From: Planctomycetota bacterium
GTDB taxonomy: Bacteria; Planctomycetota; Planctomycetia; Gemmatales; Gemmataceae
Assembly (NCBI GenBank): GCA_021807595.1
Contig: JAKBCS010000023.1
Coordinates: 1-48,678 of the forward strand
Direction of reading: 5' to 3'
DNA: 48,678 bases
The notes under the pieces are model-generated. The model was not told where the DNA came from, did no database searches, and worked only from the letters and a program-made list of their open reading frames with translations. Positions 2,849 through 26,464 of this stretch are shown piece by piece. How positions within the stretch are numbered: position 1 is the first letter of the stretch; every line of letters starts with the position of its first letter. The translations under genes and the position numbers were made by a program.

Positions 2849-2875
2849 GTCGTCCTCTCGTTCGGGATGGAGGGA

Positions 2876-3475
2876 TCACTTTTCGACGTGGCGATCGTCG
2901 TTCCACAGGCGCAGAGCGGGCTCGTGGCGATTGTGTTCGTAGCCCAACACGCTCAACGAGGCCGTGGTCAGCAGCAGCAGCCGCCCCTCTTGCGCCGCCA
3001 AACCCAGCCAGCGCGCGGCCAACACGCGCAAGAAATGTCCGTGCGAAAAGAGGAGAATCGGGCCGTCGATGCTCTGCAGGCGCGCCAGCACGCGGTCGGC
3101 CCGCGCGCCGATCGCCTCCAGCGATTCGCCGCCCGGACAGCCATCGCGGAACAGGAACCAATCGGGACGCGCTTGGCGAATGACCGCCGTGCGTTCGCCT
3201 TCATAGTCGCCGTAATTCCATTCGACGAGATCGGCGTCGACTTCGACGTTCGCCGCGAACCCGGACAGTTCGCAGGTGCGCAATGCGCGCTGGAGAGGGC
3301 TGCTGAAAACCCGGACGAATTGCGTGCCGCGCAGACGCTCGCCGAGGTTGCGCGCGTTGCGTTCTCCGTGGGGTGTCAGAGGAATATCGGTTCTGCCGGT
3401 GTGTTGGCCGGAGAGAGACCACGCCGTCTCTCCGTGGCGGGCGAGATAAATGCTCGGCAAACGCTCGTTGCTCAT
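2876..3475 (-). CDS. Histidine phosphatase family protein (phosphoglycerate mutase-like)
   Basis: A 199-residue member of the histidine phosphatase (phosphoglycerate mutase/CobC) superfamily. The phospho-acceptor motif LARHGETAW lies at residues 11-19, with R13-H14-G15. The second catalytic histidine is in LLFSHGHFLRVLAARWLG near residue 147, and LVEWNYGDYEG near 82 supplies the usual acidic residue. The 199-residue size fits broad phosphatases or alpha-ribazole-phosphatase-like proteins better than the longer cofactor-dependent mutase. The start is preceded by GAGGA. It sits 27 bp upstream of glgP, so it may act on a sugar phosphate or 3-phosphoglycerate; this is inference from position. The exact substrate cannot be read from sequence. 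Confidence 0.9.
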   Translation of the reverse strand: MSNERLPSIYLARHGETAWSLSGQHTGRTDIPLTPHGERNARNLGERLRGTQFVRVFSSPLQRALRTCELSGFAANVEVDADLVEWNYGDYEGERTAVIRQARPDWFLFRDGCPGGESLEAIGARADRVLARLQSIDGPILLFSHGHFLRVLAARWLGLAAQEGRLLLLTTASLSVLGYEHNRHEPALRLWNDDRHVEK

Positions 3476-3625
3476 GGAGAGATCCTCATGGGGGCCGACA
3501 CCGTTGATCTACGGACAAGCCGTTCCCTCGGCATCCTTCCAGCGCGAGGAATGCGGAGCGCGCATCCTTCCCGATGCGACTTGCCGGAACCCGATTCTCG
3601 CGCGGCAGAGGTCGTGGTGGCCGGT

Positions 3626-4720
3626 TCAGCGCAGGGCGATAGCGTGATGGCTGAGCCGTTCGTAGCCGCCTTCGCCGATGAGATAGTTGTGTTCGATGCG
3701 CAATCCGCCGACGTTGGGGACGTACAAGCCCGGTTCCAGCGTCACCACGTCGCCGGCTAAGAGCGTCTCGTCGGCCGCGCGGACAAAATACGGTGCTTCG
3801 GGGTGGGTCAGCCCCAAACCGTGGCCGGCGTGGTGCGGGAAATAGTCCGCCATGCCGGCGCGGTCGAACGCATCGCGCACCGCGCCGTAGACGTTGCGAC
3901 ACGACCGACCCGCCGCCAACTCCTTCTCTCCCGCCGCCATCGCTTGCACACACAGATCGTAGAGCCGTTGTTGCTCGGCGTTCGGCTCGCGCCCCACGAC
4001 GAGGGTATTGGTGAAGTCGCCGCGATAGCCGTCGATGACCACCGAGAAGTCGAGGATGAGCATGTCGCCGGGTTCGAGAATGCGGCGTGTGGGCGGGCCG
4101 CCGCGCCGCTGGGGTCCGGGCGAGACGGCGAAATCGCCGTAGACCACGACGGCGCGTCCGGCCGCTTCGATGCACGCGCTATTGATGCCGCAATACACGT
4201 CCAACTCGCTCAAGCCCGGCCGGACGTTCGCTCGCGCCCAGGCGTGACCCGCCTCGCCGGCGCGCATGCAAAGACGGAGCAAAGCGATCTCATCGGAGTC
4301 TTTTTGCCGGCGCATCTCCGCGATGGCGCGGACGACGACGGCGGCATAGGGATCACCGGGCCGATCGTGGATGCGCAACCCGGACAGTGAGGGGTTGACG
4401 GCCTGCAACAGGGCTATCTGGCGCGGTCCCTTGCCGGGCGATTGGCCGTCGTACCAGGGGACGACGGTGCGCTCTTCGACGTGGGCCTCGTCGACCGAGT
4501 GCGGCAAGCGGTCGTCGTGAAGGAGCTTCGCGTGGCCGTCTCGGCGCAGCAGCAGATAGCCGCCAAAACCCGCGCCGAGGCTGAACGGATCGACGTGGAA
4601 ATTGGCCAGATACATCAGGTGGATGGGATCGCCGAGGCGCAGATGATCCGTGTCGGGAGGCGGATCGAGTTGATTCCACAGGCGTTGGCGGCGTTGTTTA
4701 CAGGCTTCGGCGGTTAACAT
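3626..4720 (-). CDS. M24 family Xaa-Pro peptidase
   Basis: A 364-residue metallopeptidase of the M24 (aminopeptidase P/prolidase) family, expected to cleave Xaa-Pro peptide bonds. The two-metal ligand set is visible in order: Asp in LILDFS, Asp in GDFTNTL, His in GHGLGLTHPE, Glu in TLEPGLY and Glu in RIEHNYLI. The N-terminal third is the non-catalytic creatinase-like domain. I chose the ATG at 4720, reading MLTAEACKQRR, because GGAG lies 7 bases upstream; an upstream ATG at 4789 would add 23 poorly conserved residues. It follows the Gly-rich membrane protein gene after 126 bp that include a 13-bp inverted repeat. Distinguishing aminopeptidase P from dipeptidase needs substrate data. Confidence 0.93.
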   Translation of the reverse strand: MLTAEACKQRRQRLWNQLDPPPDTDHLRLGDPIHLMYLANFHVDPFSLGAGFGGYLLLRRDGHAKLLHDDRLPHSVDEAHVEERTVVPWYDGQSPGKGPRQIALLQAVNPSLSGLRIHDRPGDPYAAVVVRAIAEMRRQKDSDEIALLRLCMRAGEAGHAWARANVRPGLSELDVYCGINSACIEAAGRAVVVYGDFAVSPGPQRRGGPPTRRILEPGDMLILDFSVVIDGYRGDFTNTLVVGREPNAEQQRLYDLCVQAMAAGEKELAAGRSCRNVYGAVRDAFDRAGMADYFPHHAGHGLGLTHPEAPYFVRAADETLLAGDVVTLEPGLYVPNVGGLRIEHNYLIGEGGYERLSHHAIALR

Positions 4721-4741
4721 GATGCGCTCCGTGGTAAACGA

Positions 4742-4824
4742 GAAATCCGAAAGAAGCCGGTCGCGTCTCCCGTTGGCAGTGTAGGCCAAGCGAGGAAACG
4801 TACCAAGTGCGTCTTTCGGATTTC
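4742..4824. repeat. 13-bp perfect inverted repeat with 57-bp interior
   Basis: GAAATCCGAAAGA at 4742-4754 is the exact reverse complement of TCTTTCGGATTTC at 4812-4824. The pair lies between the Gly-rich membrane protein gene and the M24 peptidase gene. On the RNA it could close a long stem over the leader of the peptidase gene, or mark a small miniature element. There is no T-run after it, so it is not a clear intrinsic terminator. Confidence 0.7.
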
Positions 4825-11325: not shown

Positions 11326-12246
11326 ATGGCTCGGTTTATACGAGTTCTAAAGAACGGATGGAATGGCGGCGAGGCAAAGCGCGGCTTTACCCTGATCGAG
11401 TTGTTGGTCGTCATCGCGATCATTGCTATTCTGATCGGTCTGCTGCTGCCCGCCGTGCAAAAGGTGCGCGAAGCTGCCGCCCGCGCCCAATGCAGCAACA
11501 ATTTGAAACAAATCGGTCTGGCGTCGCAGAATATGTTCGACGTGAATCAGGGCACGATTCCACCCAGCATCGGCAGCTATCCGAAACCATTTCCGTCGAC
11601 GGGCAACGGCGAGGGGGGCACTTTGTTTCTCATGCTGCCCTTCATCGAGCAGGGCAACGCCTACAACCAAAGTTACCCCTACAACGATTCCTTTAACGGC
11701 GGTTTGCCGACCTATTCCGAATACGGCGGCATCGCCGTGGGACTGGTGGTCAAGAGTTACGGCTGTCCCTCCGATCCAACGTATCAGGCCTCGCGCATCG
11801 GGCCGTGGGGTCAAACGGTCGCCAGTTACGCGGCCAACGGGCAAGTCTTCGCCGGCAGCCGCTGGAATGCGAACTACGGCCGCTTCCCAGCCTCCATTGT
11901 GGATGGCACCTCGAACACCATCTTCTGGACCGAGAAAGAAGCGGTGACCCTCGGTAACTGTGGTCAGCCGCAGCTGGCGGTGGGTTACAACTACTGGCAA
12001 GATTGGGGTTCGGTCATCGCTTCGTCCCAAGCCGGCCAGCCCACCGGACCCGGCGTGTACTTCCAGGTCAATCCCGTACCCGTCGGCCAAGGTTGCGACG
12101 GCATCGCCAATTCGGGACATACAGCCGGCGTCCAGTGCGGCATGGGAGACGCCAGCGTTCGCATCGTAACTCAAGGCACGAGTACGACGACCTACTGGTA
12201 CGCCTTGACGCCGGCCAACGGCGACGTTCTTGGGCCGGATTGGTAG
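11326..12246 (+). CDS. DUF1559 pseudopilin
   Basis: A 306-residue DUF1559 protein, typical of planctomycetes. After a short basic leader, residues 19-40 give the prepilin motif [19 protein letters not shown] with Glu at mature position 5, then the usual PAVQKVREAAARAQCSNNLKQIG helix. The C-terminal SGHTAGVQCGMGDASV has the family's H-x9-D spacing, but with Ala after the Asp where DG is usual. The ATG is preceded by GAGGGAG. The gene lies 184 bp after TPR paralogue A, in an AT-rich leader with TATAAATA-like sequence near 11270 that may hold a promoter. It is followed by a lipoprotein and TPR paralogue B, a plausible single module. The role of DUF1559 proteins is unproven. Confidence 0.93.
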   Translation: MARFIRVLKNGWNGGEAKRGFTLIELLVVIAIIAILIGLLLPAVQKVREAAARAQCSNNLKQIGLASQNMFDVNQGTIPPSIGSYPKPFPSTGNGEGGTLFLMLPFIEQGNAYNQSYPYNDSFNGGLPTYSEYGGIAVGLVVKSYGCPSDPTYQASRIGPWGQTVASYAANGQVFAGSRWNANYGRFPASIVDGTSNTIFWTEKEAVTLGNCGQPQLAVGYNYWQDWGSVIASSQAGQPTGPGVYFQVNPVPVGQGCDGIANSGHTAGVQCGMGDASVRIVTQGTSTTTYWYALTPANGDVLGPDW

Positions 12247-12290
12247 TCGCTCCGCGCTTCGTTCTCCCGCCGCCGAGCCAATGCGGCGCA

Positions 12291-12352
12291 GAGTCCGTGC
12301 CATAAGCCCCTCTCTCCCGTACTCAGGGGAGAGGGGCTTATGGCACGGACTC
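12291..12352. repeat. Long palindrome of the CCCCTCTCCC family
   Basis: A 62-bp inverted repeat with arms of about 27 bp. The outer arms (GAGTCCGTGCCATAAG and its complement) and the CCCCTCT core pair perfectly, with a small bulge near the loop around CGTACTCA. The right flank GGCACGGACTCTTA is shared, with changes, by the copies at 24641 and 88-203. It lies between the pseudopilin and lipoprotein genes and could stop or protect the transcript there. Confidence 0.9.
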
Positions 12353-12415
12353 TTACCGGCGGGAGGTTGGTTTATTCCCGCCGATTATCGACACTTTTTC
12401 GTTCGAGGTTAAAAA

Positions 12416-12883
12416 ATGAGCGATCTCTCCGTGGTCCGGCACATGCACCGGGCGAGTGCGATTCTGTTCCTCCTGCTGTTGATGCCGTTGGTGGGCTGCG
12501 GCCGGTCCAAAGGTACGCTCTCCGGGAAAGTTACCTATCGAGGCGCGCCTTTGCCCGGCGGCACCATCACCATCGTGCCCGAAAAAGGCAATGCGGCGCA
12601 GACAATGTCGGGGAAGATCGAATCGAACGGAACTTACAGCGTTGCCAATGTCCCCGCCGGCGCGGTGAAGGTGAGCATTCGCGTCTCGGAGCCTACACCC
12701 TTTGCCGAAGCCCGAATCCCGCCGTCCGAGATAGCCGCGAAGGGCAACGAAGCGTTCAAGCCGCCCGCGAACTCCGCGCAGCCCACCGTGAGACTGCCTC
12801 TCGAATACAGCGATCCGGATAAATCGGGACTTCGCTACACCATCAACGGAGGCGCTCAGTCACAAGACATCGACTTGAAATGA
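12416..12883 (+). CDS. Small lipoprotein with carboxypeptidase-regulatory-like fold
   Basis: A 155-residue exported lipoprotein. The N-terminus ends in a lipobox, LLMPLVGC, so the mature protein would begin at the Cys near residue 28. The mature part opens with GTLSGKVTYRGAPLPGGTITIVP and SNGTYSVANVPAGAVKVSI, the pattern of the beta-sandwich carboxypeptidase regulatory-like (transthyretin-like) domain found in many planctomycete lipoproteins next to DUF1559 genes. GAGG precedes the ATG. The TPR gene starts 7 bp after its stop, indicating an operon. A role in the envelope beside the pseudopilin is inferred from position only. Confidence 0.85.
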   Translation: MSDLSVVRHMHRASAILFLLLLMPLVGCGRSKGTLSGKVTYRGAPLPGGTITIVPEKGNAAQTMSGKIESNGTYSVANVPAGAVKVSIRVSEPTPFAEARIPPSEIAAKGNEAFKPPANSAQPTVRLPLEYSDPDKSGLRYTINGGAQSQDIDLK

Positions 12884-14744: not shown

Positions 14745-17700
14745 ATGTTGACGCCACGGAACCGACAGAAAGCTCAAGCGCGACGGCCGATCCGGACTCC
14801 TCTCACCTTGGAAGCGTTAGAGGATCGGACCCTGCTCAATGCCGCTCCTTCAACCGTTCTCGATTTGAACGGACTCGGCGTAAATCCGACTAAGTACAGT
14901 TCGACGGACATCTTGGTGCGATTTCAGACGCCGCCGGGCACTCCCGGAGGTTCGGAGTTGGTGAAGGGCACTGCGTTGGGCAGCGCTATGCCCTTGGTCT
15001 CCGGTCTGTACGAAATCGCGCTGGGCAAGGGCACGACGGTGGCCCAGGCTTTGGCGGCGTATAAGGCCGAGAAGGGAGTTTTGAGCGCCGAGCCAGACTA
15101 TCAACTGAAAGTCTCGTCCGTCCCCAACGATCCGCTCCTCAGCCAACAATGGTATCTGCACAACACGGGACAGAACGGCGGCAAGCCCGGCGCGGACATT
15201 CATGCCGAACAGGCATGGAGCGTGACCAGCGGCAGCCCCAATGTTGTCGTCGCCGTCATCGACACGGGCATCGACTACAACAATCCCGATCTGGTCGATA
15301 ACATCTGGATCAATCAGGCCGAGATTCCCAACTATTGGTACACCAAGACGAGCGCGTCGAGCGGCTACGATAAGCTCGTCTACAAATGGCAAATCAAGAC
15401 GGCGACGCCGGGTGTAATCACCTTCCGCGATCTCAATAATCCGGTGAATGCCGGCTTAGTGTGGAAGAGCGACGGCAACAGCCTCGTCGATCCGACCGAC
15501 TTGCTGCGCTTGCGCACCCAGGGCGGATGGACGTATGCCGGCAACACGCAAGACGGCGACAAGGCCCACCCCAACGATATTTTCGGTTGGAACTTCGTCA
15601 ACAATACGAACAATCCGTTCGACTACAACGGCCACGGAACCAACGTGGCGGGCATTCTCGGCGCGGTGGGCAACAACGGCATCGGCGTCGTTGGCGTCGA
15701 TCCCAACGTGCAGATCATGCCGCTTCAGTTCATGGGGGCCGACGGCAGCGGATCGGTCAGCAACTTCATTCAGGCGCTCAACTATTCCATTCAACACGGC
15801 GCGAAAATTACCAACAACAGTTGGGAAGGAGCGCCGTACAGCCAAGATCTGTACGATGCCATCGCCAACGCCCAAGCTCACGGTCAGATTTTCGTGGCGG
15901 CAGCCGGCAACGAGGGGACGAACAATTACACGATCCCCGATTATCCGGCCAGCTTCAGCACCAGTCTCACCAACGTCGTCGCCGTCGCCGCCACCACCAA
16001 TACCGACCAGTTGGCCTATTTCTCGAACTACGGCCCGGACAGCGTGGCCTTGGCTGCTCCCGGCGTCAACATTTACAGCACGCTGCCCGGCAATCAATAC
16101 GGAGCCATGAGCGGAACCTCAATGGCCGCCCCGCAGGTCGCCGGCGCAATGGCCCTGGTCTGGGGGTTGCACCCGACTTGGAATTACGTTCAAGTCATCG
16201 AACAAGTTCTCAGCACGACCGACAAACTGCCGAGCTTGCAAGGCAAGGTCGAGACGGGAGGCCGCCTCGATGTCGCCGCCGCCGTCGGTTGGAACCTTTC
16301 GACCACCACCACGCCCGCCATTACCTCGGTCGGCGTCGAAGGCTCGAACAGCACTTCCATGTACGGCTTGATGCTGACCTTCAACGAACCCATCGACGTT
16401 AGCTCGTTCAGTTCTAGTGCCGTCCGGTTGACGAACCCCTACGGCCAAGCCATTCCGGTCGTGGTCAACGTGGTTCCCGACTCGTCGGATCGACAGATCC
16501 GCTTGACCTTCGCCAATCAGACGCTTTTGGGCAATTACAAGCTGTCGATCGACTCCGCTGTCCGCGACATGATGGGCGTGGCCATGACACCCTACGTTGG
16601 GGTCGTCACGCTTAATCCGGTGCAGACCTACGGCAGCAGCGTCGCCCAGGCGATAAAACCCTACGGCTTGGCCATGTCGTCGATTACCGTGCCCGCCGGG
16701 ATGACCGTGGGCAACGTGCAAGTGCGGGTGAACGTCAACTATCCCCACGACGACAATCTGTATCTCTATCTGATTTCGCCGACCGGCAAGACGATCGCCC
16801 TCGACTACAATCGCGGCGGAGCGGGGGCGAACCTGACCAACACGCTGTTCTCGCAGCAAGCCAGCACGCCGATCGGCCAGGGGCACGCCCCGTTTGACGG
16901 AGCGTACATTCCGGAAGCGGCCTTAAATCAACTCGTAGGCAGCAACGCCGCCGGCAGTTGGCGTCTGGGCATTCGCAACTCCGGAGGCGGCAGCGGTACT
17001 TTGGTGAACTGGTCGCTGATCTTGTCTCCCGCCGCCACCATCGACGCGGTCTCCACCAGTTCGGTACCGAGCAGTTCCCTGGCCAACACGGCCAGCACGA
17101 CGACCACGCACACCTACACCAGCAGCGCCGCTCAGGCCATCAAGCCCTATGGCTTGGCTCTGTCTCCCATCTCGGTTCCGTCCGGTACCACCGTGAGCAA
17201 CGTGCAAGTGCGGGTCAATGTGAGCTATCCCGACGACGCCAAGTTGTACGTTTATTTGATCTCGCCGACGGGCAAGACCGTGGCCCTCGACTACAACCGA
17301 GGCGGCACGGGGGCGAACCTGACCAACACGCTGTTCTCGCAGCAAGCCAGCACGCCGATAAGCAAAGGGGCTGCTCCGTTTGACGGATCGTATCTGCCCG
17401 AAGCGGCGTTGACCAATCTGGTCGGCAGTGCGGCGGGCGGCGTCTGGCGTTTGGGAGTGCGCAATTACGGAGGCGGCAGCGGAAACCTCGTCAACTGGTC
17501 GCTCGTTCTCACTTCCGGTGGCACAGCAAGCAGTATCAAGACCAGTTCCGTGGACGTTGCGATGACTCCTCCGACCAACCCGACTCCCGCTCCGGCCATC
17601 GCCCCCGAAGCGCTCAATGCCAATGCTAAATCGACGTTCGCGCTGGTCGCCAACGTCACGGCTCCGCCACCGCTCCTTCCACAGCCCACTCCAGAGCAGA

Positions 17701-17834
17701 CCGCCGCCGCCGCGCCTACCTCTCCCGCAGTTCTCGGAAAAGTCCTCTCTTCCGTTCGATCCCTCAAACGATTTATGGGCACTTTATGGACCGGCAAACG
17801 GCCCAAAGGTGACGCAAACGAGACGGCGGAATGA
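14745..17834 (+). CDS. Exported subtilisin-like serine protease with two P domains
   Basis: A 1029-residue S8 peptidase, predicted to be exported. Residues 22-31, LEALEDRTLL, match the LEPR-XLL motif of large planctomycete surface proteins. An inhibitor-like propeptide spans about 50-125. The catalytic triad is D173 (VVAVIDTGID), H297 (NGHGTNVAG) and S459 (SGTSMAAPQVAG), with oxyanion N389. A beta-rich linker at about 525-625 is followed by two proprotein-convertase P domains, each with QAIKPYGLA, YLISPTGKT and NLTNTLFSQQ. A Pro/Ala-rich C-terminal tail ends in basic residues. Tandem P domains suggest a secreted or surface-bound protease with a stabilising or binding tail. AGGAAG precedes the ATG. 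The substrate is unknown. Confidence 0.95.
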   Translation: MLTPRNRQKAQARRPIRTPLTLEALEDRTLLNAAPSTVLDLNGLGVNPTKYSSTDILVRFQTPPGTPGGSELVKGTALGSAMPLVSGLYEIALGKGTTVAQALAAYKAEKGVLSAEPDYQLKVSSVPNDPLLSQQWYLHNTGQNGGKPGADIHAEQAWSVTSGSPNVVVAVIDTGIDYNNPDLVDNIWINQAEIPNYWYTKTSASSGYDKLVYKWQIKTATPGVITFRDLNNPVNAGLVWKSDGNSLVDPTDLLRLRTQGGWTYAGNTQDGDKAHPNDIFGWNFVNNTNNPFDYNGHGTNVAGILGAVGNNGIGVVGVDPNVQIMPLQFMGADGSGSVSNFIQALNYSIQHGAKITNNSWEGAPYSQDLYDAIANAQAHGQIFVAAAGNEGTNNYTIPDYPASFSTSLTNVVAVAATTNTDQLAYFSNYGPDSVALAAPGVNIYSTLPGNQYGAMSGTSMAAPQVAGAMALVWGLHPTWNYVQVIEQVLSTTDKLPSLQGKVETGGRLDVAAAVGWNLSTTTTPAITSVGVEGSNSTSMYGLMLTFNEPIDVSSFSSSAVRLTNPYGQAIPVVVNVVPDSSDRQIRLTFANQTLLGNYKLSIDSAVRDMMGVAMTPYVGVVTLNPVQTYGSSVAQAIKPYGLAMSSITVPAGMTVGNVQVRVNVNYPHDDNLYLYLISPTGKTIALDYNRGGAGANLTNTLFSQQASTPIGQGHAPFDGAYIPEAALNQLVGSNAAGSWRLGIRNSGGGSGTLVNWSLILSPAATIDAVSTSSVPSSSLANTASTTTTHTYTSSAAQAIKPYGLALSPISVPSGTTVSNVQVRVNVSYPDDAKLYVYLISPTGKTVALDYNRGGTGANLTNTLFSQQASTPISKGAAPFDGSYLPEAALTNLVGSAAGGVWRLGVRNYGGGSGNLVNWSLVLTSGGTASSIKTSSVDVAMTPPTNPTPAPAIAPEALNANAKSTFALVANVTAPPPLLPQPTPEQTAAAAPTSPAVLGKVLSSVRSLKRFMGTLWTGKRPKGDANETAE
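16822..17359 (+). repeat. Tandem P-domain duplication inside the protease gene
   Basis: The P-domain coding unit is repeated with an offset of 486 bp (162 codons). A 52-bp block at 16822-16873 is identical to 17308-17359, inside a longer region of lower identity. Such exact identity within an otherwise diverged repeat points to recent duplication or gene conversion. Confidence 0.85.
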
Positions 17835-20079: not shown

Positions 20080-23000
20080 CTAATTCATCCGCAGCGAGGC
20101 GATGAGTTGTTCGCCGAACGGCTTTTCGAGAGGATGGAGCGACTTGACCTCGAAGCCGCGCTTGCCGGCGTCTTCCAGGGCTTGGCGAGCCTCGCGCGGC
20201 TTGTTGAGGGCGGCGAGGGCGCGGGCGAGATGGAAGGCTCGGCTCGGCGACGAGGATAGCGACAGGGCCGATTGCAAGTCTTCCACCGCTTTCTCGGTAT
20301 GTCCCAAGGCCAGCTGGATCACGCCGCGCGTGTCCAGCAACTCCGGCGACGGGCCGACGAGATCGATGGCCCGATTGATCTGACTCAGCGCTTCGTCGGA
20401 CGGCGGCTTTTTGAACGCCAACAGCCAAGCGAGATTGTTGAGAACCATCACGTTGTCGGCGTCCTTGGTCAAGGCGCGCCGATAAACGGACTCTGCCTCG
20501 TCGAAGCGCGCTTGGAGATCGTAGACATCGGCGAGACAAACCATGAGGGCGATGGAATCGGGCTTCTGGGACAGCATGTCTTGAAGCGTCTTTTCGACGC
20601 GGCGACAGGGAGCGTCGCCAGCAGCGTTGGCGCGGAGAATGCCGGTTAGCACCTGGCCCACGGTTTCCGGAGAAGCCTTGTGCTTTCGCGCCGCGTCGCA
20701 GCTATCGAGCGCGTCGTTGAGTCGATGTTGGCGGCCGAGAAAGCCGGCCAACGCCAGGTCGCGATCCGGCTTATCGGATTGGGCGACGTATTTGCGATAC
20801 ATCGTCTCGGCTTCACGTCGGTAGAGTTCTTTGGCTTTGCTCTGTTCGCCCAGCGTCTCTAAAAGGAGGCCGACGCGGGCAAGGTCGGCATCCTTGCGGC
20901 GAGAGAACTCTTGGAGGAGAGCGATGGCGTCGACATCTTTGCCCTTGGCTTGGAGAACGCGCGCCTTGATCTCGCCGGTTAGAGGTGAATCGGGCAGCGC
21001 CTTTTCCAGCTTCGCCAGCTGCGCTTCGGCGTCGGCGATGGCGTCGTGCTGGAGCAATCGGCGCGCGTAGTACGCCTGATAGGCCGGGTTTTTGCCGTCG
21101 AGAGAAGACAAGAGGGTGAGCATGTGCAGCTGAGCCTGCGCCCAATTGTCCTCGGCCAGATAGAGCCGAACCAGGGCGAAGCGCTCTCCGGCAGGGAGCG
21201 TGCCGCGCTGCGCCAGATCCTCGAACAGGCGAATGGCTTCCTTGCGCCGGCTGAGGCGTGTGGCCAACAGCAGCGCCTTGGCGTGCAGGTCGGCGTCGTC
21301 CTTGATGGTGTCGAGATTCTTCTCGATGAGCGCCATGGCTTCGTCGTAGTTTCGCCGATCTCCCCGCGCCGCCAGCGCCGCGGCCAAACCGCGCCGCGCC
21401 CAGGCCGTATCGGCGGACGATGCCTTGTCGCCCACATCGAGTATCGTCCGCAGGCGCGGCTCGGCCTTGGCCGACTCGCCGTGGCGAATGTAGAAAGTGG
21501 CCACGTTGCGGAGCATTCCCGCTTCGTTGGGCGCGCTCTTGAGCGCGGCCAAATAGTTCTCTTCCGCCTTCTTCAGATCGCCAATGTTCTCATAACACGC
21601 TCCCAAAGCCAGGGGCGCTTTGTCGGCGGGAATCTTTTTGGCGGCCCGCTCGATGGCTTGCTCCGCTTCTTTCTTCTTGTCGGCGGAGACCAGATAGGCG
21701 ACGAGCGTGACCCACGTTTCCGGCGCGGTCTCGTCCAGTTCGCAGGCGCGGCGGAGCGATTTCTCGGCCTCGGCTTGTTTGCCGGAGGCCCACTGTACGC
21801 GGCCCAACCACAGGGGATCTCGATAGTCCTTGGAGTCCGGCGACACGGATTTGACGGCCAAATCGAGGGCCCGCTCGGTGTCGCGCTGGCTCGGATCGGC
21901 CTTGGAGAGCAACGTATCCACCGCCAACTTGCCCAGACCCGCGGCGAGCAACGTGTTCTCGCGGTCGAGCAGTTTGCTTACCGCCGCGTTGGCCTCGTCG
22001 AACCGCCTTTGCTCGAACAACAATTGCACCGTTCGCCGAACGATGGCCGGTCGCCGCTCGCCCAGCGTCAGCGCTTGTTGATACTTGTCGATGGCCGAGG
22101 CGGTTCGTCCTTCGAGTTCGTCGATTTCTGCTTCCAACGAGGGGATGCGCGCCCAACTGGTGCGGCGCGTACCGGCGGCGACGAGGAATTGTCGGGCCTC
22201 GCGCAGCGCGCGCCGTCCGGCGTCGGTCAACTCTTCTTTCTCTTTGGGCCGCGCCTTCTGAATGCGCCGCGCCGCCTCGGCGTAACGCCAAAACGTGCCG
22301 TTCTCGCCTTCGATGCCGCGAATCTCCGACAATTCGCGGTCAATCTCGGTTTCCGACTTGGCCAACAGCGCCAGATCGAACAATACCAGGCGGATGGCGA
22401 GATTGTTGGGCTGCAGTTCGGCGACTTGCCGCCACAAGCGCTCGGCCTCGGTCGTATCTCCCATGCGCATGTGGGCGTCGGCCAGACCATTCAGCAGGCG
22501 GGTCCGCTCCTCGACCGGCAGTTTTGCCGTGCCCTTTTCCATCGCGGCCAGGGTTTGTCGTACCTTTTCGGCTGCCTTCTTACGCTCTTCGGGCGTCTTG
22601 GCGTCGGCCGGCGGTTGGGTCAGATAGCCTAGGCGGACCAACGGCAACTCGACGCGGTCGGCCAACTTGGGACGCGCCGCCGCCCGGTCCAGAAGGCGCT
22701 CGGCTTCCGCCCGCTCCGACAGCTGCGCCAACGCGATCCACAACGACACTTCGTCCGGATGGGCGTCGCGCGCCTTCTCAAGCAGCTTGCGCGCGGCATC
22801 GAGATTCTTGGCGTCTTCCAGCAACAGTAACTCGGCGTGCAGGACCGGCAGATCGAGAGCGTCCGGCGTTTCTTTCTCGGCGGCGGCCAATTCGCGCTTC
22901 ATCTCGCCGATGTCGCGGTCCTTGCGCGGCAGCGGGGCATTGCGGACGATGAGGGCGCGAACCAGCGTGGCGTGCAGTCCCTGCGGAGGCTTCGGCAATC

Positions 23001-24369
23001 CCAAGAGATTGCGAAACTCGGCCAAGGCTTCATCGTTGCGCCCCAAGGCCATTTGCACCGAGCCGAGCCGATAGTGAACCGTCGCCGACAGCGGATCGAG
23101 TTGGCGCGCCTGCTGATAGGCCAACAATGCCAGATCGGGGTTGCCCAGCCGTTCTTCGCATTGTCCGACCATCAACAGGGCTTGCACTTCCAGTCCCGGC
23201 AGCCGCGTCAGCTGCGGGCGCACGCGGTCGAGCAGCTGGCTCGCCTTGCTCCACTCTTCCTTGCGGAAGTAAATGCGCGCCTGCAAATAGTCGAGCAGCG
23301 GCGGGGCGTATTTCAACTCGCGCAGGCGAGCGATGGTCTTCTCCGCTTCTTTCAGTTCGCCGTCCTGCACCAACAAGTCGGCCAAGGCGTGCAGCAGATC
23401 GCCGTCGTCCGGCAACTCCTTCAGGCCGCGCCGAACCAGCGCCAGCGCGTCTTTCGATTTGCCATCGCGGACCTCTAGGGCGATCAGCGCCAGATACAAG
23501 CGCGTCTCGCGCGGATGGGCATCAATCCCTTGGAGCAACACCTCGCGGGCTTGTTCCGTCGCTCCCTGGGCGCGGGCCACATCGGCGGCGGCGAGAACGA
23601 CCTCCGGTTCGTCGGGTGCCAGCTGGCGGGCCTGACGCACGTCCTCTTTCGCCGCTTCCACGGCGCTGGCCAATTTCCCATGAAATTGAAGTCGATAGCG
23701 CGATCGCGCCAAATAAGCCTCGAACGCCTTGGGATTGGCCTTCACCATCGCATCGACGACGGCGTCGGCCTCGTTGGGTTTGTCGAGCTTTTCGTGCAGC
23801 AGCACCGCCGCACGCACATAATTATCGAGTCGATCGGGAGCGTGGCGAACGGCTAACTGATAGGCGTCGAGAGCCTTTTGCGCATGGCCGAGCCCTTCCT
23901 CGCAGCGGCCCATGAGGCGTTCGAGGTCGGCGTCTACTGCCTCGCCTTGATGGAGTTTCTCCAAGTGAACCATCGCCTCGTCGAATCGGCCCATGGCCAT
24001 GGCCGTATCCACCTGCCGCCGTCGAATGTCGCGCCGATCCGGGTCGTGCCGCAGCACCCCTTCGAGCTTGAGATACGCCATCACGCGGGCACGTCCCGAC
24101 CCCGATTTCTTGGCCTGATCGTCCAAACCGATGCCGAAGCGCGACTGAGCCTTCATGTCTCCCGGCTCGAAGCCGAGATAGCGTCCCAGATATTCCATTT
24201 CCTTGACGGCATCTTTATCTTCCTTGGCCCGGTCGGCCATCAGCAGCAGCGAACGGGCGTTGCGTTTGACCTGGTAGCCGTGGACGAAGTGAACGACGGT
24301 TCCCAGCGCGGCAAAAGAGATCACCAGGCCGGCGAGAAAGAGGTAGTTCAATCTCTTTCGAGTTTTCAT
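20080..24369 (-). CDS. Giant membrane-anchored TPR protein
   Basis: A protein of about 1429 residues made almost wholly of tetratricopeptide-like helices. The N-terminus MKTRKRLNYLFLAGLVISFAALGTVV is a basic stretch followed by one membrane segment, so the body is probably periplasmic. Repeats are seen from residue 50 to the end, for example DAYQLAVRHAPDRLDNYVRAA, LLAYQQARQLDPLSATVHYRLG and EAESVYRRALTKDADNVMVLNNLAWLL. The architecture resembles the long TPR proteins of exopolysaccharide and exosortase loci. The start is uncertain: the ATG at 24369 has GAGAG upstream, and other in-frame ATGs lie at 24417 and 24468. It is divergent from the FeeM-like gene and upstream of the sulfatase gene. 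Role: scaffold, partner unknown. Confidence 0.85.
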   Translation of the reverse strand: MKTRKRLNYLFLAGLVISFAALGTVVHFVHGYQVKRNARSLLLMADRAKEDKDAVKEMEYLGRYLGFEPGDMKAQSRFGIGLDDQAKKSGSGRARVMAYLKLEGVLRHDPDRRDIRRRQVDTAMAMGRFDEAMVHLEKLHQGEAVDADLERLMGRCEEGLGHAQKALDAYQLAVRHAPDRLDNYVRAAVLLHEKLDKPNEADAVVDAMVKANPKAFEAYLARSRYRLQFHGKLASAVEAAKEDVRQARQLAPDEPEVVLAAADVARAQGATEQAREVLLQGIDAHPRETRLYLALIALEVRDGKSKDALALVRRGLKELPDDGDLLHALADLLVQDGELKEAEKTIARLRELKYAPPLLDYLQARIYFRKEEWSKASQLLDRVRPQLTRLPGLEVQALLMVGQCEERLGNPDLALLAYQQARQLDPLSATVHYRLGSVQMALGRNDEALAEFRNLLGLPKPPQGLHATLVRALIVRNAPLPRKDRDIGEMKRELAAAEKETPDALDLPVLHAELLLLEDAKNLDAARKLLEKARDAHPDEVSLWIALAQLSERAEAERLLDRAAARPKLADRVELPLVRLGYLTQPPADAKTPEERKKAAEKVRQTLAAMEKGTAKLPVEERTRLLNGLADAHMRMGDTTEAERLWRQVAELQPNNLAIRLVLFDLALLAKSETEIDRELSEIRGIEGENGTFWRYAEAARRIQKARPKEKEELTDAGRRALREARQFLVAAGTRRTSWARIPSLEAEIDELEGRTASAIDKYQQALTLGERRPAIVRRTVQLLFEQRRFDEANAAVSKLLDRENTLLAAGLGKLAVDTLLSKADPSQRDTERALDLAVKSVSPDSKDYRDPLWLGRVQWASGKQAEAEKSLRRACELDETAPETWVTLVAYLVSADKKKEAEQAIERAAKKIPADKAPLALGACYENIGDLKKAEENYLAALKSAPNEAGMLRNVATFYIRHGESAKAEPRLRTILDVGDKASSADTAWARRGLAAALAARGDRRNYDEAMALIEKNLDTIKDDADLHAKALLLATRLSRRKEAIRLFEDLAQRGTLPAGERFALVRLYLAEDNWAQAQLHMLTLLSSLDGKNPAYQAYYARRLLQHDAIADAEAQLAKLEKALPDSPLTGEIKARVLQAKGKDVDAIALLQEFSRRKDADLARVGLLLETLGEQSKAKELYRREAETMYRKYVAQSDKPDRDLALAGFLGRQHRLNDALDSCDAARKHKASPETVGQVLTGILRANAAGDAPCRRVEKTLQDMLSQKPDSIALMVCLADVYDLQARFDEAESVYRRALTKDADNVMVLNNLAWLLAFKKPPSDEALSQINRAIDLVGPSPELLDTRGVIQLALGHTEKAVEDLQSALSLSSSPSRAFHLARALAALNKPREARQALEDAGKRGFEVKSLHPLEKPFGEQLIASLRMN

Positions 24370-24640
24370 AAGGCGCTCTCGTTGCTGTTGCAGAAGCGAA
24401 TCGAACATAGTTTTCATCCCGAAATTGAATGCAACAAACATGCCAGGAACCCGGCGACCACGACGCAACGCAATTGTGGCTTATTTTCTCGCTCGGCAAC
24501 GCAAATCGACGGTCGGGACGTTCCGATCGCCCCGCCGACGTATCGACAAGTTAGCGCTTGGGGATACGAGATGTTAACGAACGGCAACAAGGGTTAACGT
24601 CTTATCCCGTCCGCTGGAGCCGGAGATTGTCTCATCAGCT

Positions 24641-24672
24641 CCCCTCTCCTTTGAAGTATAGGGTGAGAGGGG
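24641..24672. repeat. Imperfect palindrome of the CCCCTCTCCC family
   Basis: CCCCTCTCCTTTGAAG and TATAGGGTGAGAGGGG are imperfect arms around a short loop. The flank GGGACGGACTCTCA matches the right flank of the 12291 copy (GGCACGGACTCTTA), so this is an older, diverged member of the family seen at 88-203, 12291 and 39711. Confidence 0.75.
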
Positions 24673-24708
24673 CATTTGGGACGGACTCTCAGCTTCGGTG
24701 GGTTTCGT

Positions 24709-24737
24709 TTGACCCTCGACCGACTGAGAGCTAGGCT
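24709..24737 (+). promoter_or_regulatory. Candidate promoter of the FeeM-like gene
   Basis: TTGACC (24709-24714), 17 bases, then TAGGCT (24732-24737). The -35 and spacing are the same as in the better promoter at 6533-6561; the -10 is weaker. The ATG lies 97 bp downstream. Confidence 0.35.
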
Positions 24738-24834
24738 TTCTCGACTCGACTCGATACCCCTCAAGCTCATGCGCGCGCCGAATCCCTCCCCCGGCGGCCG
24801 CATTCGATAACACTCCGCCCGGAGGTCTGCCGCG

Positions 24835-25656
24835 ATGATTGCGCTTGCAGAGGGAGAGTCCCACCTCGAGAACCGCGTTGGGTCCTCGCTGCCGTGTTCG
24901 TCGAGATCGCTTCCCGTTTCCGGTCTGTCGCGCCGGGTCGTCGTGCAAATGGCCTCGTCGGCGAGCGACTGGGAGCAAGCGTTTGCCTTGGCCGCGTCGA
25001 GCTACCAATCGCGCGGCTACGAATCGCCGGGCGTCAGCCGTCTGCGTTTCACGCCGTACCACGCCTTGCCGGACACCGTGACGCTGGTGGCCCGCGAGGG
25101 GGAGCGCGTCATCGCCACGTTGTCCATCGTGCAAGACAACACGCTGATGGGTCTGCCGATGGAATGCGTCTATGCCGAGGAGATCGCGGCGTTGCGGCGC
25201 GAGGGTCGGCGCTTGTTTGAAGTGACGACGTTGGCCGACTCCGGTTTGGGCGTGCGCGAGTTCGTGAGCGTCTTCGTGGCCTTGATTCGTTTGGCGACGC
25301 AATACCACACGCACACCGGAGGCGACACGGGGGTCATCGCCGTTAACCCGCGCCATCGCGCCTTTTATACGCGCATGCTCGGCTTCATCGAACTGGGTCC
25401 GCGCCGCAGCTACGCCGCTGTGCAAGATCATCCCGCCGAGGCGTTGTGGATCGACGAGAAACTCATGCGCCGCAACACGCCGGACATGCACGCGACAATC
25501 TTCGGCGAACGGGTTCCGCGCGAGGCATTGACGGCCTCACGGCTACCCCATCCTCTCATCCGACATTTCAGTCAACAATCGTCTCTGTGCGACACCGATC
25601 ACATCGAAGCGATCTTGTCGCAGACGGAGCGCGACGGTAGCCCGCGCCGCTGGTAA
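24835..25656 (+). CDS. N-acyl amino acid synthase FeeM-like acyltransferase
   Basis: A 273-residue protein whose central part matches the FeeM-type N-acyl amino acid synthase branch of the GNAT fold. DTVTLVAREGERVIATLSIV is followed by DNTLMGLPMECVYAEEIAALRREGRRLFEVTTLAD; the GLPM...Y..E...LR..GR.L.EV pattern is the signature I rely on. NPRHRAFYTRMLGFIELG closes the fold. Known members join an acyl group, often from acyl-ACP, to an amino acid; related proteins occur in exosortase/PEP-CTERM loci. The first 35 residues are not part of the domain. GGAGGT precedes the ATG at good spacing. The neighbouring giant TPR protein is divergent. The product is unknown. Confidence 0.75.
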   Translation: MIALAEGESHLENRVGSSLPCSSRSLPVSGLSRRVVVQMASSASDWEQAFALAASSYQSRGYESPGVSRLRFTPYHALPDTVTLVAREGERVIATLSIVQDNTLMGLPMECVYAEEIAALRREGRRLFEVTTLADSGLGVREFVSVFVALIRLATQYHTHTGGDTGVIAVNPRHRAFYTRMLGFIELGPRRSYAAVQDHPAEALWIDEKLMRRNTPDMHATIFGERVPREALTASRLPHPLIRHFSQQSSLCDTDHIEAILSQTERDGSPRRW

Positions 25657-25765
25657 GAACGATGGAGGAAAGCGGCAGCCTCGATTCTCTGGGAGTCCGC
25701 GCGCCGTCGCGAACCTCGGGCGAGACGAGGGTGAGCGCGTGCCATACAAAACATCCCTTTTCGAG

Positions 25766-26464
25766 TCACTTGCCGCGCGCTTGCCATTGTTCCTCGGCGG
25801 AGCTGGGGCGGAGATAGAGCGGTTCCAGGGTCATGGGATCGTCGCTCTCGCCGGCGCGGTAGCGGCGTAAGCCGAGGCGCAGCAGACTCGCCGGTTGCGG
25901 CTCCCACAAACTTGCGTCCAAGAGGGGCATACGCGAAGGCAGACGTGTCGCCCATTTGTGCAACCCCGGTCCCGTCGCCGCCGCGTCCGCCCGCCGCGCC
26001 GCCAGCCAATCGGCGACGGGACGAATCGCTAATGGCGTCGTCGGTTGCCAATCCTCGCCGCAGCGCGCGAACGATTGCACATAAATCTTGTCCTGTTGCG
26101 CGTCGGCCAAGACATCGACCTGTTCTATCGCCGACGGGGCTTGCAGCGCGATCGCGGCGAAGGTTTCCACCCCCAACAGGACGCAGCCAGCGGCATGGGC
26201 GAACGTCTTGGCGGACATTGAGCCGACGCGCAAGCCGGTGTAGCTGCCGGGACCGCGACTGACGATCACCGCCCGAATCTCGCGCGGCTTCCAGCCTCGT
26301 TCGACCAACAGAGACGCGACTGCCGGCGTCAGGTCGCGGGCATGACGCCGCGCCTCGTCCAAGCGCCGTTCGCCGCACACCGTCTCGCCCTCGGCCACCG
26401 CCACGCGGCCCGTGCGGCTCGATGTCTCCACAATCAAGCAACGAAGATCGGCCAACGGATGCAC
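25766..26464 (-). CDS. tsaB: tRNA threonylcarbamoyladenosine biosynthesis protein TsaB
   Basis: A 232-residue ASKHA-fold protein that forms the TsaB-TsaD-TsaE complex needed for the t6A37 modification of ANN-decoding tRNAs. The N-terminal LIVETSSRTGRVAVAEG and the block AVIVSRGPGSYTGLRVG are the family signature; TGLRVG is almost invariant. The start is GTG at 26464, just after a near-perfect Shine-Dalgarno AGGAGGTGATTT at 26466-26477. It converges with the FeeM-like gene and is divergent from the RNase H gene. The C-terminal part is variable as usual. I see no tsaD or tsaE in the window. Confidence 0.93.
   Translation of the reverse strand: MHPLADLRCLIVETSSRTGRVAVAEGETVCGERRLDEARRHARDLTPAVASLLVERGWKPREIRAVIVSRGPGSYTGLRVGSMSAKTFAHAAGCVLLGVETFAAIALQAPSAIEQVDVLADAQQDKIYVQSFARCGEDWQPTTPLAIRPVADWLAARRADAAATGPGLHKWATRLPSRMPLLDASLWEPQPASLLRLGLRRYRAGESDDPMTLEPLYLRPSSAEEQWQARGK

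Follow-up and report, generated by a model that had tools for sequence, protein, structure and literature searches.

N-acyl amino acids and their FeeM-type synthases have already been described in planctomycetes. Stieleriacines (N-acyl tyrosines) are reported from Stieleria in work that also describes putative synthases of the FeeM type, their PEP-CTERM surroundings, and an influence on growth and biofilms (PMC7293339), and a shared set of synthase, ThiF, and nitroreductase genes has been described along with three nasY deletions made in Stieleria neptunia (PMC12479983). The latter work also states that in planctomycetes the pathways for secondary metabolites are frequently unclustered. The enzymology of TyzA, TyzB, and TyzC is known, with TyzA acting on free amino acids (PMC10404671), and N-acyl amino acid synthases (NAS) have been linked to exosortases (Craig 2011, as cited in PMC7293339). 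Here, we analyzed a stretch of 48,678 nucleotides (the window; contig JAKBCS010000023.1 of assembly GCA_021807595.1) from a planctomycete of the Gemmataceae, in which a FeeM-type gene lies divergent from a gene for a giant tetratricopeptide repeat (TPR) protein. An earlier reading of the letters alone (the sequence-only reading) had proposed that the two may form part of a lipid-signal or surface-anchoring system not yet described in planctomycetes, a claim of novelty that the published stieleriacines overturn (PMC7293339, PMC12479983).

We infer, at a probability of about 0.6, that the gene encodes an N-acyl amino acid synthase whose clade includes the heads of gene clusters, and that the parts of the corresponding pathway are scattered in the window's own genome (G000; a draft of 5.67 Mb in 282 contigs, 95.5% complete, in which the window's contig is C221). 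The clusters headed by members of this clade combine the synthase with a DevCAB-like exporter, a ThiF-type cyclase, and, in some, a nitroreductase-type desaturase. In G000, the window supplies the synthase, beside a PrsT-like TPR gene; contig C6 carries the nitroreductase and ThiF genes, and contig C166 holds the exporter, within an exosortase/polysaccharide locus. In the proposed scheme, FeeM would acylate an amino acid, a nitroreductase-type flavoenzyme would desaturate the acylated amino acid as TyzC does, the ThiF protein may cyclize the product to an oxazolone as TyzB does, and the exporter would carry the lipid to the envelope, where it could serve a surface or biofilm program with the TPR protein as a possible scaffold. 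The exporter genes found beside FeeM provide a concrete, deletable candidate for the route by which N-acyl amino acids exit the cell. The two genes at the center of the analysis are:

24835 to 25656, forward strand: FeeM-type N-acyl amino acid synthase, 273 amino acids (Pfam FeeM, PDB 2g0b, AlphaFold model)
20080 to 24468, reverse strand: giant TPR protein, up to 1462 amino acids from the first start codon, with 11 TPR_19 stretches

A FeeM-type synthase by family and fold

The open reading frame (ORF) at 24835 to 25656 contains GLPMECVYAEEIAALRREGRRLFEV, the same pattern from which the sequence-only reading had recognized a FeeM-like acyltransferase, and this assignment is borne out by both sequence and fold. 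The protein matches the Pfam FeeM profile (PF21926) over positions 1 to 158 of 158 at 139.4 bits against a cut-off of 27, and the only other Pfam family at E ≤ 1 is PA2201_N (12.8 bits, under its cut-off). A general GNAT profile scoring better than FeeM would have spoken against the assignment; Pfam reported no GNAT (Acetyltransf) family at E ≤ 1, so the FeeM reading stands, and at the same threshold neither Pfam nor NCBIfam reported a LuxI-type family. The sole NCBIfam model at E ≤ 1 is NF011425/PRK14852, matched at positions 27 to 199 of 989 with 83 bits, far below its cut-off; TIGR03694, which we take to be an exosortase-associated acyltransferase family, was thus not matched. A sequence search of the PDB returned 2g0b (FeeM) as the sole credible match (E 5.9e-15), the two others having E of at least 1. 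An AlphaFold model for which 20 planctomycete FeeM rows were supplied reached a mean predicted local distance difference test score of 91.3, and a fold search of the PDB with this model retrieved FeeM chains as the six best matches (E 4.8e-13 for 2g0b to 1.2e-10), followed by the best non-FeeM match at 7.4e-6, with LasI and BjaI after it. The catalytic domain spans about residues 34 to 208, and residues 1 to 22 are predicted to be disordered. Twelve positions besides the start methionine are invariant across the 20 rows, the window protein included. By family and modeled fold, the protein is an N-acyl amino acid synthase, and it very probably has that activity.

The gene is conserved in a sister genome of the same genus (G003), used for all ortholog comparisons, where the ortholog on contig C39 is 95% identical with a ratio of nonsynonymous to synonymous divergence (dN/dS) of 0.155. 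The next genes downstream in the window encode a tsaB-like protein (TsaD family) and an RNase H (Pfam). RimI-type enzymes are often located near tsaB; a joint function of this kind with the tsaB-like neighbor was rejected, since FeeM is not a GNAT. In G003, an extra ORF of 194 amino acids without a Pfam match (L056:8803-9387) lies between FeeM and the tsaB-like gene, and its counterpart in the window comprises only about 110 bases (25657-25765).

Exporter genes that accompany FeeM

FeeM genes are patchily distributed in planctomycetes: of 392 genomes surveyed across the phylum, 50 have a match above cut-off, and of 397 from the class, 32 have one at E ≤ 1e-12. Among the fetched loci, a custom FeeM model gave 92 ORFs a domain score of 100 or more; the 84 loci with more than 9 kb of flank are the denominator for all locus fractions, and the 8 with less were set aside. 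Weaker or partial matches (for example, G396 L161, G582 L213, G725:C51, G534:C5:810417, and G597:C16), FeeM-matching ORFs of about 600 amino acids (such as those of G026 and G006), and G387:C10 are outside this count. Partners within 10 kb of FeeM were called with seven profiles at score thresholds of our own choosing. PEP-CTERM tails were counted with a regular expression applied to the final 35 residues; two tails, in G664 and G584, escaped it and were then read by eye. A complete exporter trio, consisting of an FtsX/MacB-type permease, an ATPase, and a membrane fusion protein, is present at 25 of the 84 loci, representing 12 of the 18 planctomycete families sampled. A ThiF-type protein is encoded near FeeM at 26 loci, at 18 of them together with the trio, while nitroreductase-like proteins (6/84), exosortases (5/84), and PEP-CTERM-like tails (19/84) also occur.

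The permease belongs to a distinct subfamily, since scores across 34 genomes are either at least 524 or at most 321 bits, with a gap between. A search of the 397 class genomes at E ≤ 1e-130 yielded 30 permeases of this DevC subfamily with scores from 628 down to 486, in 27 genomes, 22 of which also have FeeM. Assuming that the FeeM and DevC surveys drew the same 397 genomes, 22 have both, 10 have FeeM only, and 5 have DevC only (Fisher p 6e-24, with relatedness ignored), which becomes 22, 8, and 5 when the weak matches of G006 and G026 are left out. Eighteen of the 30 DevC genes are within 10 kb of FeeM. The other 12 include three in exosortase loci (G000:C166, G003:C91, and G538), one beside ThiF and nitroreductase genes in a 20-kb stretch that has no FeeM (G591:C103), one at another place in a genome that does have FeeM (G597:C8), and two on other contigs of G020.

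Some of these genes appear to be fused. A single ORF in G375 (L134:11485-13470) matches both FeeM and ThiF, and one in G237 (L151:7348-9432) matches both ThiF and nitroreductase, like fused proteins of other phyla. The genomes G131, G075, and G375 each have at least nine FeeM matches and no exosortase match.

A gene cluster in the sister genome and its proposed scattered counterpart

Two FeeM genes are present in G003, the window ortholog on C39 and a copy on C33, the latter being the nearest non-orthologous FeeM to that of the window (60.6% identity over 249 amino acids by BLAST, 56% in the 20-row alignment). The C33 copy heads a cluster with the order FeeM-FtsX-ABC-MFP-ThiF-nitroreductase (ABC, ATP-binding cassette ATPase; MFP, membrane fusion protein). 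DevC and DevA are the best NCBIfam matches of its trio and DevB is among the better ones, all three below cut-off, whereas the ThiF protein is above the PRK08223 cut-off and the last protein belongs to the nitroreductase family. In the FeeM tree, the window gene, both G003 copies, and those of G682, G617, and G486 form a clade marked 99*, and the G486 copy also sits in a cluster of trio and ThiF genes. The FeeM tree (without L071, which is too short) and the TPR tree (without the G342 gene, which is cut by its stretch) are quick trees with support only from the Shimodaira-Hasegawa-like approximate likelihood ratio test.

The only FeeM match found in G000 is that of the window. Contig C6 of this genome matches G003:C33 on both sides, and about 6.5 kb (MFP-ABC-FtsX-FeeM) is missing from G000. 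Two genes of the set are present on C6:

Contig C6 (L217), 2636 to 3700: ThiF protein, 534 bits in a custom model and 424 bits against a cut-off of 266 in PRK08223
Contig C6 (L217), 1392 to 2858: nitroreductase, 485 bits in a custom model and 39.2 bits against a cut-off of 23.5 in PF00881

Both are full length, and among the proteins of the fetched loci they are closest to those of C33 (91% identity in the ThiF core and 78% in the nitroreductase). The published set of synthase, ThiF, and nitroreductase thus occurs together in G000, on C221 and C6 rather than clustered, and as a cluster on G003:C33. The window FeeM would be the natural source of substrate for the C6 enzymes because it is the only FeeM found in G000, and we put the chance that its product is passed to them at a little short of even. 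The only exporter of the DevC subfamily found in G000 is that of the C166 locus, where the trio is accompanied by an exosortase, a Poly_export protein, and an AAA_31/CbiA protein. Such a pathway would be missed if only clustered genes were sought.

Between C6 and C33, the ThiF core has a dN of 0.054 and a synonymous divergence (dS) of 0.74 (0.94 when unequal ends are included), and the nitroreductase has a dN of 0.13 and a dS of 0.74, so that both show few protein-level changes relative to silent ones. For eight other G000/G003 pairs, including FeeM, TPR, tsaB-like, RNase H, exporter, second TPR, and sulfatase genes, dS is 0.15 to 0.29. The silent divergence of the pair (L217:1392-3700 versus L057:4424-6808) is two to three times that of its neighbors. 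Stretches with about 78% identity to one gene on G000:C6 (L217:355-1395) flank the FeeM-exporter cluster of G003 on both sides (L057:2153-3241, 3423-4778, and 11669-12799; the first ORF matches DUF4351 below cut-off), and the cluster may have been lost or gained through these stretches.

The giant TPR neighbor

The divergent giant neighbor described in the sequence-only reading is present, reading away from FeeM on the opposite strand, and both genes are conserved in G003 (94% identity and dN/dS 0.12 for the TPR protein). Its best NCBIfam match is PrsT (TIGR02917), the model of a TPR protein from exosortase/PEP-CTERM regulatory systems, at 233.3 bits against a cut-off of 312.2, which is not reached. 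One N-terminal membrane helix is predicted (hydropathy 2.16 at residues 44 to 62). No cysteine occurs among the first 80 residues and the protein therefore has no lipobox, so the lipoprotein signal of PrsT (PMC1569441) is lacking.

A giant TPR gene is located within 10 kb of FeeM at 6 of the 84 loci (the window, G003, G058, G342, G664, and G584). G664 and G584 share the divergent orientation seen in the window and have a PEP-CTERM gene, above the PF07589 cut-off in G664 and recognized from its tail by eye in G584, between FeeM and the TPR gene; in G058 the two genes are in tandem, and in G342 the distance between them is about 7 kb. This proximity requires at least three changes on the FeeM tree and two on the TPR tree, in which the TPR proteins of G058, G664, and G584 form a starred clade apart from that of the window. 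The proximity to FeeM therefore recurs in at least two lineages, and a functional tie between the two window genes is nearly an even bet. Near FeeM in G664 and G584 there is also an ORF of about 570 amino acids (L201:10645-12354 and L208:6848-8551); that in L201 encodes a FAD_binding_4 protein, and the ORF may be a further tailoring enzyme.

Long TPR proteins are tied to exosortase/polysaccharide loci in part of the family. Among 12 stretches with the TPR gene but no FeeM (L106-L117), an exosortase is present in two, one gene away in G006 and at about 4 kb in G053, and several of the rest carry sugar-nucleotide dehydrogenase/epimerase or glycosyltransferase-like genes, identified by eye from their first residues. 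A second TPR copy in G000, on C126, has a PEP-CTERM-like gene directly upstream.

The shared upstream region

The two window genes are separated by the following elements:

24409 to 24834, no strand: shared divergent upstream region, from the likely TPR start to the FeeM start
24621 to 24689, no strand: 69-base insert, a dispersed repeat with the CCCCTCTC / GAGAGGGG palindrome, absent here in G003 (boundaries according to the alignment)
24569 to 24602, no strand: inverted repeat AGATGTTAAC-N14-GTTAACGTCT, 9 of 10 pairs, present in G003

Outside the single 69-base insert, 332 of 357 aligned bases of the region are identical to G003. The Jukes-Cantor distance of 0.074 is below the synonymous distances of FeeM (0.16) and TPR (0.23), which suggests some constraint on the region. 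The palindrome that the sequence-only reading had placed in a divergent promoter fares less well. Inverted repeats do exist, but the one with perfect 8-base arms, CCCCTCTC / GAGAGGGG (24641-24672), lies within the insert absent from G003 and is a dispersed repeat, since a search with 24622-24700 gives 25 matches in G000, counting the query itself, and 7 in G003. An inverted repeat as strong as AGATGTTAAC / GTTAACGTCT arises in 23% of 300 random sequences of similar dinucleotide make-up. The idea of a conserved operator was therefore rejected, one candidate being a dispersed repeat and the other within chance. The former resembles short REP/MITE-like (repetitive extragenic palindrome/miniature inverted-repeat transposable element) sequences and is spread through G000, less often G003, with three matches close together at G000:C134:164-362.

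No sigma-70-type site was found in 24300-25800. A sigma-54-like -24/-12 site with one mismatch is located upstream of the TPR gene (24431-24445, reverse strand) and is identical in G003; the whole window has 6 such one-mismatch sites against 3.7 expected. Scans of up to 460 bases at gene starts (400 upstream and 60 inside) revealed these sites at 3 of 19 TPR genes (0.3 expected; two of the three are orthologs), 2 of 12 exosortases (0.2 expected), 1 of 28 permeases (0.5 expected), and 1 of 90 FeeM genes (1.4 expected). Control by sigma-54, as in proteobacterial PEP-CTERM systems, is a weak lead from these counts.

Exosortase and surface protein context

The exosortase genes that the sequence-only reading suggested looking for are present in G000, which has four matches to PF09721 above the Pfam cut-off (the weakest at 30 bits) on C47, C166, C77, and C140. 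The window's contig has no match, and the tail search found no PEP-CTERM protein in the window. The view that FeeM-type genes and long TPR proteins are typical of exosortase/polysaccharide loci holds in that the TPR protein is closest to PrsT and some relatives lie near exosortases or polysaccharide genes identified by eye, but not for the window, which is without an exosortase. In place of the several LEPR-XLL surface proteins reported for the window, a regular expression over the first 250 residues of each ORF found one:

14745 to 17834, forward strand: subtilase with P-domains and an N-terminal LEALEDRTLL

The same expression found no LEPR-XLL-like motif in six other stretches of G000. A link of this motif to FeeM was rejected, there being one such protein and no sign of a relation.

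Weighing the explanations

Several observations weigh against a scattered pathway built around the window synthase, and some of them would fit a stand-alone enzyme instead, one whose plain N-acyl amino acids would act as membrane aminolipids or surfactants, with no role for ThiF, nitroreductase, or TPR proteins and a neighborhood due to chance. None of the seven partner profiles is matched within 10 kb at 40 of the 84 FeeM loci, and the downstream neighbors in the window are the tsaB-like and RNase H genes. Most TPR-bearing relatives are without a strong FeeM, as the giant TPR family is found in 40 of 59 relatives (E ≤ 1e-30) and FeeM of at least 70 bits in 6 of 59; conversely, a giant TPR protein (E ≤ 1e-15) is found in 9 of 29 FeeM genomes. 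The ThiF/nitroreductase block of C6 has its own, more diverged history, with a dS to C33 of about 0.74 versus 0.29 to 0.38 in the three genes to its right. Since this silent divergence is far above that of other genes, the blocks may be old paralogs, or may have been exchanged or replaced, rather than simple orthologs separated by a deletion, and for this reason our estimate for the passage of the product to C6, and our overall confidence, were lowered slightly. The difference may stem from loss in G000 or from gain in G003. A second FeeM could also be missing from G000, since the draft consists of 282 contigs at 95.5% completeness. The trio of the C166 type may serve something else, because G003 has one beside an exosortase (C91) in addition to the exporter of its own cluster, and five DevC genes belong to five genomes without a FeeM match. 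Even so, we consider the stand-alone enzyme unlikely. G000 has retained full-length ThiF and nitroreductase genes on C6, a search of this genome turned up no second FeeM, the proximity of FeeM and TPR genes arose at least twice, and their shared upstream region is more conserved than synonymous sites.

A part in the exosortase system, with FeeM and the TPR protein jointly anchoring or lipidating PEP-CTERM surface proteins, would agree with the adjacent FeeM, PEP-CTERM, and giant TPR genes of G664 and G584, with the exosortases and PEP-CTERM-like tails counted near FeeM, and with the published NAS/exosortase link. It is improbable given the lack of an exosortase match on the window's contig and of any PEP-CTERM tail found in the window, the absence of an exosortase match in 12 of the 29 FeeM genomes (several of them incomplete), which also weighs against the scattered pathway, and the action of TyzA on free amino acids (PMC10404671). 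More remote still is a change of substrate, toward a different acyl acceptor or short acyl chains, in a GNAT-like role or for a signal of the acyl-homoserine lactone type. LasI and BjaI are structural relatives and identity to FeeM 2g0b is only about 28 to 31%, but FeeM chains take the first six places among the structural matches at E 1.2e-10 or better, with the next at 7.4e-6, and no GNAT or LuxI-type family appears at E ≤ 1.

The scattered pathway could be extended to a dedicated planctomycete system for export of N-acyl (dehydro)amino acids, in which the DevC-type subfamily travels with FeeM and with exosortase loci, and lipid, exosortase-sorted proteins, and polysaccharide would form one envelope program. 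In G000 the parts of this program would lie on three different contigs, and the synthase would share its upstream region with the PrsT-like TPR scaffold. We offer this extension tentatively, at clearly less than even odds.

Comparison with known systems

The window protein resembles FeeM (PDB 2G0B, PF21926) in its match to the whole profile, in its fold (TM score 0.80 to 0.84 by target), and in its GLPM...E...LR...EV and PxHxxFY-like motifs. It differs in its 28 to 31% identity and in the helical C-terminal region (209-273) and disordered N-terminus added in the model. The giant TPR neighbor is likewise only similar to PrsT (TIGR02917), its best NCBIfam match: it stays under the cut-off (233 versus 312 bits), lacks a lipobox cysteine, and has 1462 amino acids compared with a model of 899 positions.

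Like NasY of the Stieleria stieleriacine pathway, the window synthase is a FeeM-type enzyme from the same phylum with ThiF and nitroreductase genes in its genome, and its relatives have PEP-CTERM/polysaccharide surroundings. Unlike NasY, it is beside a giant TPR gene with the ThiF and nitroreductase genes on another contig, and its relatives have a DevCAB-like exporter, whereas the main text of PMC7293339 names only "putative transporters" and gives no clear indication beyond that; the words "transporter" and "permease" do not occur in the main text of PMC12479983. The exporters themselves are similar to DevBCA-type ABC exporters by the matches of the G003:C33 trio, but the trio is below all three cut-offs and none is present in the window. 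A literature search, which covered the main texts of the Stieleria papers, found no published link of a DevCAB-like exporter to N-acyl amino acids in planctomycetes and no dispersed arrangement beside a PrsT-like TPR gene.

The combination of acyltransferase, ThiF cyclase, and nitroreductase-superfamily oxidase is shared with TyzA-TyzB-TyzC of Mycobacterium tuberculosis and with OxzAB (PMC10404671). With the fused model NF011425, the window protein aligns at the model's start and scores under the cut-off; it is not fused, and the genes of G000 are dispersed. Because the stieleriacine synthases, the nasY set, and the Tyz enzymology have been published, the window gene is of a known type, and the association with an exporter and the scattered pathway are the newer parts.

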